The translations under genes and the position numbers were made by a program. The notes beneath the pieces were generated by a model. It did not search any database. It was not told the origin of the DNA and worked only from the letters and a program-made list of their open reading frames with translations. Positions 3,392 to 33,008 of a stretch of DNA of 33,344 nucleotides are shown piece after piece. This stretch comes from a virus: positions 1-33,344 of the IMG/VR virus record IMGVR_UViG_3300030107_002623. One strand, given 5' to 3'. The stretch's first letter is position 1, and the number at the start of each line of letters is the position of its first letter.

Positions 3392-3420
3392 TTGATTACA
3401 ATGCAGAAATGCATTATAAT
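3392..3420 (+). promoter_or_regulatory. Sigma70-type promoter
   Basis: TTGATT at 3392-3397 and a perfect TATAAT at 3415-3420 are separated by 17 bases. The site lies just after a terminator and 28 bases before the start codon at 3449. It should drive the exonuclease-ERF-SSB unit using host RNA polymerase. The downstream sequence resembles that of the promoter at 32714. Confidence 0.75.
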
Positions 3421-3448
3421 TATTATTAACAAATAAAGGAGAATGACT

Positions 3449-3823
3449 ATGGGTAGATATTATCATGGAGATATAGAAGGTAAGTTTTGGTTTGGTGTCC
3501 AACCAAGTGACGATCCAAAATTCTTTGGAGCAGAAGAAGAAGAACCAGATTTTATTAGTTATTATACTGAAGATTTAGAATCAATAAAAATTGGTATAGA
3601 TTCTTGTAAAGAACATCTTGGCAAATACTATAAAGATGTTCATCACTTCTATACTAAAATAGTAAGTGATCCTAATTATGCACAACGATTACATGAATGG
3701 TTAAACATATCAGAATCAAAAGCAGAAAATCTGATAGGTTGGTATGCAAGATTAGAACTTGGAGAAAAGATGTATAAACAAGTAAAAGAACATGGTTCTT
3801 GTGCAATAGAAGCGGAGATATAA
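3449..3823 (+). CDS. Conserved phage hypothetical protein, first gene of recombination operon
   Basis: A 124-residue protein starting MGRYYHGDIEGKFWFGVQ, an N-terminus I associate with an uncharacterised phage family next to replication genes. The ATG at 3443 is too close to AGGAG (3437-3441); the ATG at 3449 has correct spacing and belongs to the recurrent AGGAGAATGANNATG cassette. The protein is acidic in its middle part and has no visible membrane segment. It is co-transcribed with the exonuclease (gap of 1 base), so a role in replication or recombination is possible. Confidence 0.6.
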   Translation: MGRYYHGDIEGKFWFGVQPSDDPKFFGAEEEEPDFISYYTEDLESIKIGIDSCKEHLGKYYKDVHHFYTKIVSDPNYAQRLHEWLNISESKAENLIGWYARLELGEKMYKQVKEHGSCAIEAEI

Positions 3824-9121: not shown

Positions 9122-10218
9122 TATGCACCAATCTCCATTAAAGTAATAGTTGAAACACTACAAGGTCTTGCACTTATATTATCTGGGTTATTGTTATTAT
9201 TTATTCTGATTTCAGAACTGGCTTTAGCTCTTACATCATAAGTTATTGAACTAGTTGTACTAGGAGAATCTAAAAAAGTATAAGTGCTAGGATTCATTTG
9301 CTCATCTGCACCACTCTCTGGATTACCATTTTGATGAAAACAACCTGTTCTATTACCAAGACCAGAATCTTTTGAAGCATCAATAAGATTTGAACCATCT
9401 TTAAAAAGAGTTACATTACCTGTACCATTTTTACTAGAATATGGTGCTGTAACCATTATTAATACTTTGCTAGTTGTTAAGCTAGGAGTTATATCTGCTG
9501 TTAAACCTGTAACTGCGGCATAAGAATTGCTTGTTCTTGAAAAGGAATCATTTTTACGTACTGATACTACTTGTAAAACTTTACCACCACCAGCATCAGC
9601 AAACTGTAAATTACCAGAACCATCTGTTGTTAATAACTGATTTGCATTTCCATCTGCATTTGGAAAAGTAATACCATCTAAAACAACTTTACCAGAACCA
9701 TTAGGTGTTAAGGATATGTTTTGATTTGCACCATCTGCTATTGTGATAGTACCTGAATTAGTACCTGAGTTTGTACTAAATGTAAGATCACCTGTACCTT
9801 GCGTAGTGATTGTTGCATTAGCATTATTATCACCAACCATAACTGTATCTGTACCTAGATTTACATCTCCTGTACCATTAGGTATTAGATTTATATTACC
9901 ATTAGAAGCTGATACTATATTATTACCAGCTACACTTAAATCTCCACCAAGTTCAGGAGTAGGATCTTTTGATATATCTAATGTTGTAAATCCTATATTT
10001 GCTGAACCATCTGTTTTAAGTATTTGATCTGCTGATCCATCAGCTGTGGGTAATGATAAACCATCTACTATAACTTTACCTGAACCATTTGGGGTTATAG
10101 CAATATTACCATCAGAAGCAGAAACAATACTGTTTCCATTAACATCTAAGTTACCATCTAACTTTACTTCAGTACTAGCTGATCCCCTTATTTTATCTAC
10201 TTTTACTGTACTTGCCAT
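9121..10218 (-). CDS. Tail fibre protein, receptor-binding part
   Basis: The 365-residue product has repeated beta modules (N-G-N-S-I-V-S-A-S-D-G-N-I, I-T-P-N-G-S-G-K-V, T-A-D-G-S-A-D-Q) over residues 20-205, then a linker and a globular C-terminal domain starting K-V-L-Q-V-V-S-V and ending S-T-I-T-L-M-E-I-G-A, which is typical of phage fibre tips in marine viruses. It likely trimerises and contacts the host surface. Two or three of its modules also occur in the adjacent 583-residue fibre. Confidence 0.75.
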   Translation of the reverse strand: MASTVKVDKIRGSASTEVKLDGNLDVNGNSIVSASDGNIAITPNGSGKVIVDGLSLPTADGSADQILKTDGSANIGFTTLDISKDPTPELGGDLSVAGNNIVSASNGNINLIPNGTGDVNLGTDTVMVGDNNANATITTQGTGDLTFSTNSGTNSGTITIADGANQNISLTPNGSGKVVLDGITFPNADGNANQLLTTDGSGNLQFADAGGGKVLQVVSVRKNDSFSRTSNSYAAVTGLTADITPSLTTSKVLIMVTAPYSSKNGTGNVTLFKDGSNLIDASKDSGLGNRTGCFHQNGNPESGADEQMNPSTYTFLDSPSTTSSITYDVRAKASSEIRINNNNNPDNISARPCSVSTITLMEIGA

Positions 10219-10227
10219 TTTTACTCC

Positions 10228-11979
10228 TTAAAAAATTTCTAAACTGCCATCGCCACTTATTGTCCAAGTAGCACTACCACTTACAGTTATCGGTCCAAAG
10301 AGAAAAGCATTCTTTGTGCTGGCTGTTGTAGAAGTAGTATTACTACTTATACTATTATAATTACTAAAGTAATTTCCGACTGTTGTCAACTCACTTGCTT
10401 GAATAGTACCAAAACTTAATGTTCCGGAACCATCAGTTTTTAATACTTCATCTGCAGAACCATCAGTAGTTGGATAGCTTAAACCATCTAAAACTACTTT
10501 ACCAGATCCATTTGGTGTAATATTTATATCTCTATTAGATGTAGATACTATCGAATTAGTTTGAACATCAAGATTACCACCTAATTGTGGACTTCCATCT
10601 TGCACTATATCTGTTAAAGAACCAGCTACTATAGTTACCCAAGAAGATCCGTTATAATATTTTAATACATTAGATGTTGTATTATATGCTAAATCACCTT
10701 CATCTAATGATGATGAAGGATCAGAACTATCTACTCTATATCTATTAGCAAAATCATTTACTGTACTTAAATTACTTGCAACAGTATTTACATTTGCTAT
10801 TGATCCAGCTACTGATGTAATATTTGAATTAGCACCAGCTACTGTATTTATATTTGTAGAGTTACTAGCTACCGTTGTTATGTTACTTGAGATACCAGCA
10901 ACAGTACTTATATTACTATTGTTACCAGCAACTGTTGCTATATTTGTAACTACACCAGATGCACCTAATGTAGCCATATTTGTTATGTTTGCTGAAGTAG
11001 CAAGTAAATTTAAATCAGTTACTATATCACTGGTTGCCAATGTATTTAAGTCACTAACAATATCTGAAGTCGCTAGAGTATTTAAATCACTTACAATATC
11101 TGAAGTAGCCAAAGTATTTAAATCACTTACTATATCAGAAGTAGCTAATGTGTTTATATCTGATACTATATCACTTGTAGCTAAAGTATTTAGATCGCTT
11201 ACTACATCACTTGTTGCTAATGTATTTAAGTCACTTACTATATCAGTAGTAGCTAACATATTTATATCATTTATTACATCTGTTACTGCTAATGCATTTA
11301 AATCAGAAACAAAGTCTGAAGTAATCAAACTTGCAACTGCTGCAACAGAAGTAATTTCTGATGATTTACCAGCTACTGTAGTTACATTACTTGATATGCC
11401 AGCTACTGTAGTAACATTACTAGCTATACCACTTACTGTTGTAATATTACTAGCAATACCAGCAACTGTACTTACGTCTGTTGCTGTTATAGAAGTTTCT
11501 ACATTACCTGTACTACTAAATGTTAATACTTTATTTGCTCTACTAGCTTTAAGTGGTAATGTTAATGTTGCAGAAGTATCATCATCAGTTAGTCTTATTG
11601 ACCTTGATATTTCATCTTCTCTTTCACCCATCATAGCAACCATTTTATCAAGATCAGTATTTAAACTATCTATAACAAATGGACCAGATGTAGGAAAATC
11701 TGTTGTTCTTGCAACAGGTATATCTCTTATAAGTGTATATACATCACTAGCAGTAGCACCACCACCTAATACAATAGTGCCACCGCCTGATGTACCAGCA
11801 CCAGTTACTTTGTATTCAGTTTTATCCGAAGGACTACTTGCGTATGTTAGGAGTGTAGAACCTTGAAATACTTTAATATCGGTAACTTCAAATATTTCAA
11901 AGGAGTAAGTAAACGTAGTCTGTGCAGACGTAGCTGTGTACTGGTTTCTTGGTGTTGTATCATTTACGACTATAGCCAT
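10228..11979 (-). CDS. T7-type tail fibre, N-terminal adaptor and repetitive shaft
   Basis: Residues 1-150 match the N-terminal virion-attachment domain of T7 tail fibres (PF03906): N-Q-Y-T-A-T-S-A-Q-T-T-F-T-Y-S-F-E-I-F, then Y-K-V-T-G, and L-I-R-D-I-P-V-A-R-T-T-D-F. The shaft is repetitive: a 10-residue repeat (about 170-220), a 12-residue repeat built on D-I-V-S-D-L-N-T-L-A-T-S (221-340), and 10-residue repeats again (341-400). Residues 465-525 repeat a module of the neighbouring fibre. The short C-terminus lacks an obvious tip domain, so this may be the proximal part with the 365-residue protein distal. Confidence 0.8.
   Translation of the reverse strand: MAIVVNDTTPRNQYTATSAQTTFTYSFEIFEVTDIKVFQGSTLLTYASSPSDKTEYKVTGAGTSGGGTIVLGGGATASDVYTLIRDIPVARTTDFPTSGPFVIDSLNTDLDKMVAMMGEREDEISRSIRLTDDDTSATLTLPLKASRANKVLTFSSTGNVETSITATDVSTVAGIASNITTVSGIASNVTTVAGISSNVTTVAGKSSEITSVAAVASLITSDFVSDLNALAVTDVINDINMLATTDIVSDLNTLATSDVVSDLNTLATSDIVSDINTLATSDIVSDLNTLATSDIVSDLNTLATSDIVSDLNTLATSDIVTDLNLLATSANITNMATLGASGVVTNIATVAGNNSNISTVAGISSNITTVASNSTNINTVAGANSNITSVAGSIANVNTVASNLSTVNDFANRYRVDSSDPSSSLDEGDLAYNTTSNVLKYYNGSSWVTIVAGSLTDIVQDGSPQLGGNLDVQTNSIVSTSNRDINITPNGSGKVVLDGLSYPTTDGSADEVLKTDGSGTLSFGTIQASELTTVGNYFSNYNSISSNTTSTTASTKNAFLFGPITVSGSATWTISGDGSLEIF
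10780..11472 (-). repeat. Tandem coding repeats of tail-fibre shaft
   Basis: The shaft-coding DNA holds about ten copies of a 36-bp unit (12 residues) at 10960-11319, flanked on both sides by 30-bp units (10 residues) at 11320-11472 and 10780-10959. Copies are diverged at third positions, so the repeat is old or under selection for protein sequence rather than a recent expansion. Confidence 0.8.
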
Positions 11980-31015: not shown

Positions 31016-31061
31016 TGTGTTCTCCTTGTTATAAACCATACATAAAACATTGAAGGACTTT

Positions 31062-31138
31062 TGTAAAGGAAAAATACGAGAGGAAGTCCTGTGACATGTG
31101 ACAAGTCCAGAGTTTTCGACCACCCCCTACGTATACAG
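31062..31138 (-). repeat. Left copy of inverted block element (A-B-C-D)
   Basis: Read on the minus strand this leader holds block A CTGTATAC (31138-31131), 7 nt, block B GTGGTCGA (31123-31116), directly block C AAACTCTGGACTTG (31115-31102), a 32-nt insertion (31101-31070), and block D CCTTTACA (31069-31062). The same blocks in the same order occur on the plus strand at 32537-32626. Here a 7-bp stem (31054-31060 with 31084-31090) encloses block D. Confidence 0.7.
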
Positions 31139-31165
31139 GCAAAGAGGTACGGTGTTCGTGCACAT

Positions 31166-31171
31166 ATTATA
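31166..31171 (-). promoter_or_regulatory. Candidate -10 box for the late arm
   Basis: On the minus strand TATAAT is read from 31171 to 31166, about 150 bases before the first late start at 31015 and just after the end of terS. No good -35 at 16-18 bases is seen (TTGTCC lies only 13 bases away). It may be a promoter with help from an activator or chance in AT-rich DNA. Confidence 0.35.
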
Positions 31172-31181
31172 CCGAGCTAAA

Positions 31182-31571
31182 TCAGGACAAATCTATGTTC
31201 ACTTGGATTGCATTTCCTATTTGCTGGGTTTGATTTGTATCATTGGTTAAGCCAGCTCGGTCTAATATGTCTTTACTAGCTTCTAGACGTACGTATTCAG
31301 AGTTAGCATATTGTGAGAGATTTGATACAGTTTGCAATGCTGTTATTGCACGAACTCCTAGCACCTTCTTTGCTCGCTGGTGGAGCACGTGCAAAACCTT
31401 GCTGTTCTTGAGTAACCTACTTGCTTCTACTTTAGCTGAACGTTCAGAGTATCCAGCATCTATTGCACTTTGTTTTGCACTTGTGGAACCAGCTAACAGG
31501 TTATCAATGAATCGGCTCTGTCTTGTGGTCAACTGGTCGTTGGATTTGTTGTTTGTTATTTGGTTACTCAT
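31182..31571 (-). CDS. terS: Terminase small subunit
   Basis: The 129-residue product has a T-T-R-Q-S-R-F-I-D-N-L-L-A-G-S-T-S-A-K-Q-S-A-I-D-A-G-Y-S core followed by S-A-K-V-E-A-S-R-L-L-K-N, the helix-turn-helix of Terminase_2-type small subunits that bind the packaging site. The C-terminal part is helical and ends with a Gln-rich, acidic tip. The frame opens farther up at a TTG (31619), but the ATG at 31571 is preferred. Its start lies within a 10-bp inverted repeat (31513-31522 with 31597-31606), so initiation may be regulated by structure. Confidence 0.75.
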   Translation of the reverse strand: MSNQITNNKSNDQLTTRQSRFIDNLLAGSTSAKQSAIDAGYSERSAKVEASRLLKNSKVLHVLHQRAKKVLGVRAITALQTVSNLSQYANSEYVRLEASKDILDRAGLTNDTNQTQQIGNAIQVNIDLS

Positions 31572-31606
31572 CACGACATTGTTTTGTTCTATATTGGACA
31601 GAGCCG
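31513..31606 (-). repeat. 10-bp inverted repeat around the terS start
   Basis: CGGCTCTGTC at 31513-31522 and GACAGAGCCG at 31597-31606 are perfect inverse complements. In the terS mRNA this would form a stem that encloses the ATG at 31571 and about 16 codons. Confidence 0.55.
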
Positions 31607-31636
31607 TACAGGTTGTCAAGTAAATAATTTGACAGT

Positions 31637-31701
31637 CCTGAACTCCGTAGTCACGTTCAGGTTCGAGAGTCCAAGTGGCTCGAAGGGACTCGGAAGGAGT
31701 T
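31637..31701. other. Compact set of competing inverted repeats
   Basis: CCTGAAC (31637-31643) pairs with GTTCAGG (31655-31661); TTCGAG (31662-31667) with CTCGAA (31679-31684); GAGTCC (31667-31672) with GGACTC (31686-31691); AACTCC (31641-31646) with GGAGTT (31696-31701). They overlap, so not all can form together. The segment is GC-richer than its flanks and has no ORF. It may be a protein-binding region or a switchable RNA; the packaging site is another option. Confidence 0.4.
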
Positions 31702-31753
31702 GTTGATTGTATCAGATTTGGTGCAGTGATTCGTTTTTTCTACATTTTCATTG

Positions 31754-31965
31754 GTTTGTCAATGATAGGTGTAAACTCCGAAGGTTTGTTTTGTCTTATA
31801 AAAAAATAGGCATTATGCCTTTACCATATATGGTATGGGACCACACCTTGTGTGGTTCTATATTGATGTTTGTCAACAGACGGAGCTGTTGACATCCCAT
31901 ACCATATATGGTAACCCCCTTGGGATTTTTTTAACAACAAAACAAAGGAGTTTACAATGACAAAC
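31754..31965 (+). promoter_or_regulatory. Nested inverted-repeat leader sequestering RBS and start of the 31957 gene
   Basis: Outer to inner: 31754-31761 pairs with 31958-31965 (8 bp, includes part of the start codon); 31770-31779 with 31947-31956 (10 bp, covers GGAG of the ribosome-binding site); 31785-31794 with 31937-31946 (10 bp); 31800-31807 with 31925-31932 (8 bp, A run with T run). These are separated only by small bulges. Inside are a hairpin at 31808-31820 and the 20-bp stem at 31821-31914. If transcribed from upstream, the RNA would hide the start of the 31957 gene. The T run at 31926-31932 could instead act in termination. Confidence 0.65.
31821..31914. repeat. 20-bp inverted repeat enclosing two hairpins
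   Basis: Arms 31821-31840 and 31895-31914 are perfect inverse complements. Each arm holds a 14-bp palindrome, TACCATATATGGTA (31822-31835 and 31900-31913). Between the arms lie CCACAC/GTGTGG (31841-31846 with 31850-31855) and TGTCAACAG/CTGTTGACA (31871-31879 with 31886-31894), so the whole forms a three-way junction or cruciform. The palindromes could also be dimer operator sites. Confidence 0.75.
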
Positions 31966-32478
31966 GCAAAAAAATCATACGAAAAAGCAAATCAGACCAA
32001 ATCTGATACAATCATCAACAAGCTATCAAAAGCTTCAAGGGAAATTGGACTGCTCTCACCTGAACGTGAGAACGAAGTTCAGGGCATTATGTTTGTTGAC
32101 AACACTATGTACGGTCTGTTCGATTATATAGAAAGAACAAAACAAAGTCGTGATAAGTATCACGATTTGTTTCACAAATACAACGACCAGTGGGACAAGA
32201 TGAAAGAAGAAGCCGATTCACTTGGTAAACAAACTGGTGTAGTTGATTATGATGTGAAAGAGCAATCGGAACACTACGAAAATATTTATCTAGATGTTTC
32301 TGCTAGACTTGAAAGAGCAGAGCTCATTAAGAGTCATCTAGATGAAATAGTTTGTGTTCCGATTCTCGGTAGAGTATATAGTGAACAAGACTATAACTTA
32401 ACAAAGAAAAGAATTGCTGAAGCCAGAAAGAAAAATGGCTCTGGTAAAAAGACATACCAAAGAGTGAAGCTGTCATAG
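31957..32478 (+). CDS. Orphan helical protein under structured leader
   Basis: The 173-residue product is hydrophilic and helical (N-terminal basic K-K-S-Y-E-K-A-N-Q-T-K, central Y-I-E-R-T-K-Q-S-R-D-K-Y-H-D-L-F, C-terminal K-K-N-G-S-G-K-K-T-Y-Q-R-V). No membrane span, Cys pattern or enzyme motif is seen and no family is recognised. AAAGGAG lies at 31944-31950, with ATG at 31957. It is the only gene between the divergent terS and the next early unit. It is bounded by a long inverted-repeat leader and by two hairpins, so it looks like a separately regulated unit. Confidence 0.7.
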   Translation: MTNAKKSYEKANQTKSDTIINKLSKASREIGLLSPERENEVQGIMFVDNTMYGLFDYIERTKQSRDKYHDLFHKYNDQWDKMKEEADSLGKQTGVVDYDVKEQSEHYENIYLDVSARLERAELIKSHLDEIVCVPILGRVYSEQDYNLTKKRIAEARKKNGSGKKTYQRVKLS

Positions 32479-32486
32479 ACAGCTTC
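32466..32486 (+). repeat. 9-bp hairpin across the stop codon
   Basis: GAAGCTGTC (32466-32474) and GACAGCTTC (32478-32486) form a perfect stem with a 3-nt loop spanning the TAG stop of the 31957 gene. It may protect the 3' end or pause ribosomes; it precedes the terminator. Confidence 0.6.
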
Positions 32487-32494
32487 CCACAAAA

Positions 32495-32522
32495 AGCTCA
32501 GGCTAACGCCTGGGCTTTTTTT
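32495..32522 (+). terminator. Rho-independent terminator
   Basis: AGCTCAGGC (32495-32503) pairs with GCCTGGGCT (32508-32516) with a TAAC loop and one G-U pair, followed by a T run to 32522. It ends the transcript of the 31957 gene. Confidence 0.85.
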
Positions 32523-32536
32523 ATGTTTGGTATGTG

Positions 32537-32626
32537 CTGTATACTTCGGCAGTGGTCGACACAACAAAAGAGCAGTAGCTTCGCTTTGAAGCTCTTTTGT
32601 TGCGAAACTCTGGACTTGCCTTTACA
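32537..32626 (+). repeat. Right copy of inverted block element, with 45-nt hairpin insertion
   Basis: Block A CTGTATAC (32537-32544), 7 nt, block B GTGGTCGA (32552-32559), a 45-nt insertion (32560-32604), block C AAACTCTGGACTTG (32605-32618) and directly block D CCTTTACA (32619-32626). The insertion is a hairpin, CAACAAAAGAGC (32562-32573) with GCTCTTTTGTTG (32591-32602). A short ORF with AGAGGAG before it (ATG at 32636, 12 codons) follows; it is too short to call. Confidence 0.7.
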
Positions 32627-32713
32627 GAGGAGAGATGACGAGAGTATCAAGAGAATGCAATACACAACAGTAAGTGGAATAGTTTATGTTACAGCTTTAT
32701 TAAAACTTAACAC

Positions 32714-32742
32714 TTGCATTTGTGCATTGTAATAATTATACT
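32714..32742 (+). promoter_or_regulatory. Sigma70-type promoter
   Basis: TTGCAT (32714-32719) and TATACT (32737-32742) are 17 bases apart, 20 bases before the start at 32763. The stretch from TGCATT to the start resembles that at 3411-3451, including the AAAGGAGAATGA cassette. Confidence 0.65.
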
Positions 32743-32762
32743 AATAATAAAGGAGAATGAAT

Positions 32763-33008
32763 ATGAAACTAGAAGAAAATATACTTAAAGGATTAGATGA
32801 ACATATCTGGCAACAACAACAATTAGATATGGATTATCTTGATGAACTAAACAAACTTATCTTGTGTTTACAAGATTCAATTAAAGTAAACTCTAGTAAA
32901 GAACTACTAGAAATTAAGTATGCTTTTCTCAAAGAATACCAGGAGAAAGCAGAAATCATTTACAAAAGATTAGGTAAACAAGGAGTACATTATGAAGTTA
33001 TTAGCTGA
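32763..33008 (+). CDS. Hypothetical helical protein
   Basis: An 81-residue acidic, Gln/Leu-rich protein, probably a coiled coil (E-E-N-I-L-K-G-L-D-E-H-I-W-Q-Q-Q-Q-L). The in-frame ATG at 32757 is one base from AGGAG (32751-32755), so 32763 is preferred. It is the first gene of a plus-strand unit after the promoter at 32714. No family is recognised. Confidence 0.6.
   Translation: MKLEENILKGLDEHIWQQQQLDMDYLDELNKLILCLQDSIKVNSSKELLEIKYAFLKEYQEKAEIIYKRLGKQGVHYEVIS

Follow-up and report, generated by a model that had tools for sequence, protein, structure and literature searches.

Pairing kept by matching mutations at the early/late junction of podovirus-like phages points to a giant RNA structure

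The DNA analysed in the present study (the window, W) is a single virus record of 33344 bases from a podovirus, in which the terminase, head–tail adaptor and tail genes lie on the − strand and the + strand carries early-type genes, including those for an ERF recombinase, a DnaT-like domain and a PolyVal metallopeptidase; the labels ‘early’ and ‘late’ are derived throughout from what the genes encode and which way they point. Among named phages, Pelagibacter phage EXVC031P Hodr has the large terminase closest to that of the window (64%), with Methylophilales phage MEP301 and Burkholderia phage BcepC6B next; other related loci or contigs carry L-numbers. A near-identical promoter-plus-RBS (ribosome-binding site) cassette, TTGCAT-17-TATACT followed by AGGAG, is present at 32714–32765 and 3410–3451, standing upstream of an early gene and repeated in the early region, and is conserved in relatives. 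The tail-fibre genes of the window (9601–11474) contain clustered diverged direct repeats (70–77%).

At the divergent junction of the two strands, terS, which encodes the terminase small subunit (Terminase_2; 31182–31571, − strand), faces away from the first gene of the + strand block (31957–32478), which encodes a helical protein of 173 amino acids and has homologs in L004 and L176–L179. The initial annotation had described this gene as an orphan, a description that does not hold, as its protein is 94% identical in L004 and its start, MTNAKKS, recurs in L176–L179. The window and L004 copies differ at 19 synonymous and 10 non-synonymous codons. The protein family (24 sequences, A4) was modelled as a helical hairpin with a pLDDT of 87 and the window's own protein model was also helical (pLDDT 74); the family gave no Pfam or PHROG match, and fold searches with these models returned no informative match.

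In a minus-strand self-comparison of the whole window, the best match spanned this junction at 31501–32228 (67% over 782 columns, E 1.8e-41), with a local score of 186 against 17.3 (sd 2.8) for shuffles, a z of about 60. This region is the core of an imperfect inverted duplication with arms of ~364 nt. The left arm consists of a non-coding mirror (31572–31822), which in reverse complement resembles the early gene's leader and opening codons, and then the first terS codons, and the right arm of the leader and the first 90 early-gene codons. The block CATTGACAAACCAAT near 31754 in the mirror is conserved in relatives. When 31060–32660 was folded with RNAfold, either strand closed with the same outermost pairs, 31062–31069/32619–32626 and 31102–31135/32540–32618, so that the whole predicted foldback, or rod, occupies 31062–32626 and contains both terS and the first early gene. 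Its outer left arm (31062–31135) lies downstream of terS, its outer right arm (32540–32626) lies just past the terminator of the early gene (32491–32520), and six compensatory double changes were found in this outer stem between the window and L004. No comparable foldback was detected elsewhere in the window, where only scattered palindromes of 50–101 nt occur. The idea that the mirror is a second coding gene was rejected, as the mirror arm of L148 has no long ORF.

The initial annotation had singled out 31754–31965 as a 212-nt leader element of nested helices. These helices were confirmed by RNAfold at the positions described and are non-random, with an MFE of −89.5 kcal/mol compared with −45.9 (sd 3.9) for shuffles (z −11.2; none of 200 shuffles as stable); they comprise 31754–31761/31958–31965, 31770–31779/31947–31956, a helix between an A-run and a T-run, and a 20-bp stem with two hairpins. 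The ribosome-binding site and start codon of the early gene do lie inside them, as had been proposed: the Shine–Dalgarno sequence AGGAG (31946–31950, + strand) falls at the 10-bp helix 31770–31779/31947–31956, which covers most of it together with the bases before the ATG. As a leader element, the 212-nt unit was drawn too narrowly, since it is the apex of a foldback of 0.73–1.57 kb whose arms are early-gene coding sequence and its mirror. In the apex stem, 31822–31840 pairs with 31895–31913, enclosing hairpin 1 (CCACAC/GTGTGG, 31841–31856) and hairpin 2 (TGTCAACAG/CTGTTGACA, 31871–31894), and the centre of the foldback is therefore made of two separate hairpins, with no perfect palindrome as in a protelomerase telomere site. 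The reported pairing of the T-run with an A-run is real, and the same runs also serve as the U-tracts of two terminator-like hairpins that flank the apex, one per strand and both facing outwards. One lies at 31799–31820 on the − strand, facing terS (stem GGCAT/ATGCC in the window and GTTGC/GCAAC in L177–L179), and the other is a short, weak terminator-like hairpin at 31914–31932 on the + strand, facing the early gene (CCC/GGG in the window and CCAC/GTGG in L179); their stems change in step in L177–L179. The tip in L177–L179 is unlike that of the window, and GTCTAGGG/CCCTAGAC there enclose a GC-rich element that is conserved (columns 445–500 of the alignment A6 described below).

Inside the left arm, at 31614–31634 on the − strand, lies a dyad, TGTCAAATTATTTACTTGACA, with a −35-like TTGACA pointing at terS, a putative late promoter/operator that is near-invariant across six relatives and exact over ~21 nt in L180, L185, L187, L190 and L218. 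No plausible + strand promoter was found ahead of the early gene or left of the apex, and none was identified at the base of the rod, where the search for a late promoter gave no conserved candidate. Because a promoter-like element directed at terS is found within the left arm or immediately downstream of the rod, transcription of terS through the rod is not required.

Local self-alignment, in which shuffles score ~17, detected a comparable foldback (250–1240 nt, with arm identities of about 60–72%) in 92 of 108 related loci, placed between terS and the first early gene. Many of these loci are near-identical, and the count thus does not represent 92 independent cases. A first test on 80 loci of large-terminase relatives also gave strong inverted matches between these two genes, a finer test gave lengths of 244–1216 nt, and the foldback occupies this position in the window, L004, L008, L012, L014, L029, L036, L042–L049, L064, L084 and Hodr. 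The isolate Hodr carries a foldback of 694 nt, and foldbacks are likewise present in its relatives, where they were seen by local alignment and missed by blastn. Most of the relatives' foldbacks do not align with that of the window, and unrelated sequences fill the same position in distant lineages. Even L008, with a large terminase 90% identical with that of the window, has an early gene and foldback unrelated in sequence, indicating that the layout persists through turnover of the sequence; the early gene and its mirror seem to be swapped together as a single module. The foldback was absent from some close relatives in the local alignment survey (L005, L181, L189 and L191–L193) and is therefore dispensable, and MEP301 and more distant phages are without it. 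Smaller palindromes near terS were seen in more distant relatives, one of 108 nt in BcepC6B (L087 1–98 joined to the end of L168) and one of 94 nt in Vibrio phage VA-RY-3 (L170 2997–3090), and these are possible distant counterparts. An origin by MDA or assembly chimera was rejected, as arm identity is only ~67% and such foldbacks are found again in separate datasets and in the complete genome of an isolate.

Covariation in relatives had been set beforehand as the refuting test of the proposed structure, and it is present. Six sequences could be aligned (the window, L004 and L176–L179; alignment A6), and in these the helix over the ribosome-binding site is 100% paired, with three of its ten pairs changed on both sides, while the apex stem (helix 17) has two-sided compensatory changes in 9 of 19 pairs. 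Across the A6 consensus of 191 pairs, 89.5% of cells were paired and 62 pairs showed two-sided compensatory changes, against 9–14 when the partners were slid by 1–3 columns, a contrast that is inflated because the structure was derived from A6 itself, although the two-sided count is nonetheless large and was reached by none of 500 shuffles. Between the window and L004, 13 of 15 double changes keep pairing (slid, 2.4 of 7), including those at the third codon positions 32082/31638 and 32076/31644. Double changes were also kept in other lineages, namely 47 of 57 in L148/L160 (slid, 6.9 of 21), 13 of 15 in L157/L159, 10 of 10 in L088/L091, 17 of 17 in L180/L182 and 26 of 35 in L177/L179, with Hodr's group as the exception, showing little compensation (3 of 6). 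Gap events per mismatch amounted to 0.16–0.84 between arms compared with 0.02–0.20 between orthologs, and as the bulges between arms are common to orthologs, they look like part of the structure. These alignments show that complementarity is maintained by co-evolution of the arms in the window's lineage, where the pairing is very probably under selection, and in several further lineages. That pairing is kept by matching mutations there and in most other lineages points to a giant RNA structure.

Given that G pairs with U and A does not pair with C, an RNA is asymmetric between strands, whereas paired DNA arms are symmetric. In a large sister clade (L134–L166), the ratio of G.U to A.C on the late strand was 57:4 (L161), 39:3 (L149) and 41:7 (L146), and mismatches tolerable to an RNA of this strand (G.U, U.U, G.G and G.A) outnumbered their complements by 556 to 113 in the coding-paired part of 11 rods, with composition-corrected p values down to 7e-10. 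Consensus folding of this clade gave −665 for the late strand compared with −517 for the early strand, and −251 compared with −199. Most of the bias comes from the coding-paired part; over much of the non-coding sequence next to the apex it is weak, missing or reversed. Strand-biased mutation was considered as the source of the G.U excess, but it should also shift the non-coding part, which is often balanced, and leaves the rarity of A.C relative to transversions unexplained. The strand signal may conceivably reflect a mutation bias from divergent transcription together with coding constraint on one arm, but such a combination yields no compensatory double changes. Selection on a terS-sense RNA is the best explanation of the bias in the sister clade. 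Within the window's own lineage, the evidence on strand is weak and points both ways, with 18 late against 37 early mismatches in the coding part of the window (composition-corrected p 0.08) and a consensus energy slightly favouring the late strand (−127 compared with −111), and no strand bias was seen in Hodr's group. From these patterns we consider the selected molecule likely to be RNA.

On balance, we lean towards reading the locus as a giant foldback at the early/late junction that gives rise to an antisense rod RNA. The 5′ part of the early gene (the whole gene in some relatives) and its leader face a mostly non-coding mirror lying between this gene and terS. An RNA of terS (late) sense, as deduced from the relatives, would form a bulged rod of 0.25–1.2 kb with a branched tip, in which the 5′ arm would be antisense to the early gene, ribosome-binding site included, and the 3′ arm would mimic the early mRNA. 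During transcription in the late direction, the antisense stretch would be captured in cis by the mirror, producing a stable self-contained rod and not a free antisense RNA, and control of the early gene and late (terS) transcription would share the junction by way of this rod. The switching elements in the window's lineage would be the pair of terminator-like hairpins together with the promoter-like dyad directed at terS. A regulatory role of this kind, probably at the early-to-late switch, is proposed tentatively and we regard it as rather doubtful. We would place slightly short of an even call the proposal that these loci define a new class of giant phage RNA, in which a terS-sense transcript of up to ~1.2 kb would form one bulged rod, its mirror having co-evolved with early-gene coding sequence by compensatory and G.U changes, so that the same DNA would be both a protein gene and half of a structural antisense RNA.

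The initial annotation read the apex as a translational or transcriptional switch or an extruding cruciform, and the real structure covering the ribosome-binding site is the part of this reading that stands. As a local translational or attenuation switch, the leader would form the 212-nt structure, hide AGGAG and ATG, and place the weak terminator at 31914–31932 before the ribosome-binding site; the full pairing and covariation of that site's helix in six relatives (helices 13–14), the retention of the U-tract with its hairpin and a mismatch pattern in the window that leans to the + strand are all consistent with this. Occlusion would nevertheless require transcription of the + strand from a point left of ~31800, where no promoter was detected, and a local switch leaves unexplained both the co-evolving pairing that extends deep into the coding sequence and the outer arms and the strand evidence of the large sister clade, which favours the opposite, terS-sense, strand; we consider it unlikely. 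An element acting as double-stranded DNA, be it a cruciform, a replication origin or a terminase recognition site, would account for the palindrome, and would suit the position beside terS at the early/late divergence, the lack of a clear strand preference in the window's lineage and Hodr, and the 108-bp palindrome (81%) upstream of terS in BcepC6B. It predicts equal constraint on both strands, which the relatives with a strong one-strand bias do not display, and neither the 57:4 excess of G.U over A.C nor the strand-specific set of mismatches; the many bulges and mismatches of the arms are, moreover, poor for extrusion. We judge a DNA-level element to be improbable as a general account, a plain cruciform failing on the relatives' strand-biased mismatches and being conceivable in the window's own lineage.

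The arms could also be a mutational by-product, an old inverted duplication homogenized by replication template switching and without function. Template switching is known at quasi-palindromes (PMC8604942, PMC7202029) and homogenizes the arms of inverted repeats; the clustered double changes at 31117–31135/32540–32558 could be copied tracts, and the little compensation in Hodr's group fits. Homogenization should, however, erase bulges and leave no strand bias, two tests that are not decisive for the window's own lineage. Bulges persist between orthologs, several relatives have some ten times more G.U than A.C, and the same position is held by unrelated sequences in distant lineages. We therefore think a by-product quite improbable.

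Neither the window nor 13 relatives matched any Rfam family (4227 models at gathering thresholds, self-cleaving ribozymes included), and a DNA search in annotated phages was likewise negative. Papers on palindromes in pelagiphages, on imperfect palindromes close to terminase genes and on long hairpin RNAs of phages, searched mainly among open-access articles, yielded nothing relevant and no description of such a foldback. The palindromes of phage telomeres (telRL), pac sites and origins are inverted repeats near replication or packaging genes that are short and near-perfect, whereas the foldback is long, bulged and ~67% matched, with a bias to one strand in relatives. It resembles phage leader attenuators and RBS-occluding hairpins in placing the ribosome-binding site and start codon in a helix and in its terminator-like U-tracts, but is one to two orders of magnitude larger and uses coding sequence as a pairing arm. 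In plant and animal hairpin-RNA loci, a foldback of a partial protein gene and its inverted copy yields RNA antisense to the gene; the phage mirror differs in staying complementary by long-term co-evolution, and Dicer-like processing is not expected. GOLLD and ROOL are tied to phages. With OLE, they are large structured bacterial and phage RNAs (PMC12286853) and share with the proposed rod RNA the character of a large structured RNA without a coding role, but they are ornate with conserved sequence motifs, whereas the foldback forms a single long, bulged rod with a different sequence from lineage to lineage. Obelisks have a ~1-kb rod-like RNA fold with a protein gene along one arm (PMC11922315, PMC13096302), and a predicted ~1-kb rod-like RNA with an ORF in one arm likens the foldback to these and to hepatitis-delta-like rods. 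The foldback differs from Obelisks and viroid-like RNAs, which replicate as RNA free of DNA, in being a segment of a 33-kb dsDNA phage contig beside terS, and from Obelisks in that the favoured strand in phage relatives is antisense to the gene and the protein is a helical hairpin lacking a Pfam or PHROG match. As regards Oblin-1, the protein to be looked for in an Obelisk, what was observed for the early protein is a purely helical model and the absence of matches in these two databases. By the tests made, the foldback is a member of neither the Obelisk/delta-like rods nor the inverted-duplication hairpin-RNA loci.

If the antisense rod RNA is real, very large structured RNAs, absent from Rfam and with a shape not known from DNA phages, would be present in many podovirus-like marine phages, one of them a SAR11 phage isolate, and the need to pair with a non-coding mirror would constrain a protein gene there over much of its length. 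Such an RNA would raise the questions of which strand is made and when, how it escapes RNase III and whether it controls the early-to-late switch, for which the isolate Hodr offers a laboratory system. Even with a modest function, compensating foldbacks with replaced sequence provide a test case for selection on structure against replication template switching.

Two further observations concern the surroundings of terS. At 31141–31371 of the window, there is pairing between the 3′ portion of terS and the sequence directly downstream, and six double changes between the window and L004 are compensatory there, which suggests a second RNA structure. In L146–L166, a TTGACA element just upstream of terS precedes two G-runs (GGGGGACTAGGGGG or longer variants of it), which may represent a G-quadruplex or a strong leader signal.
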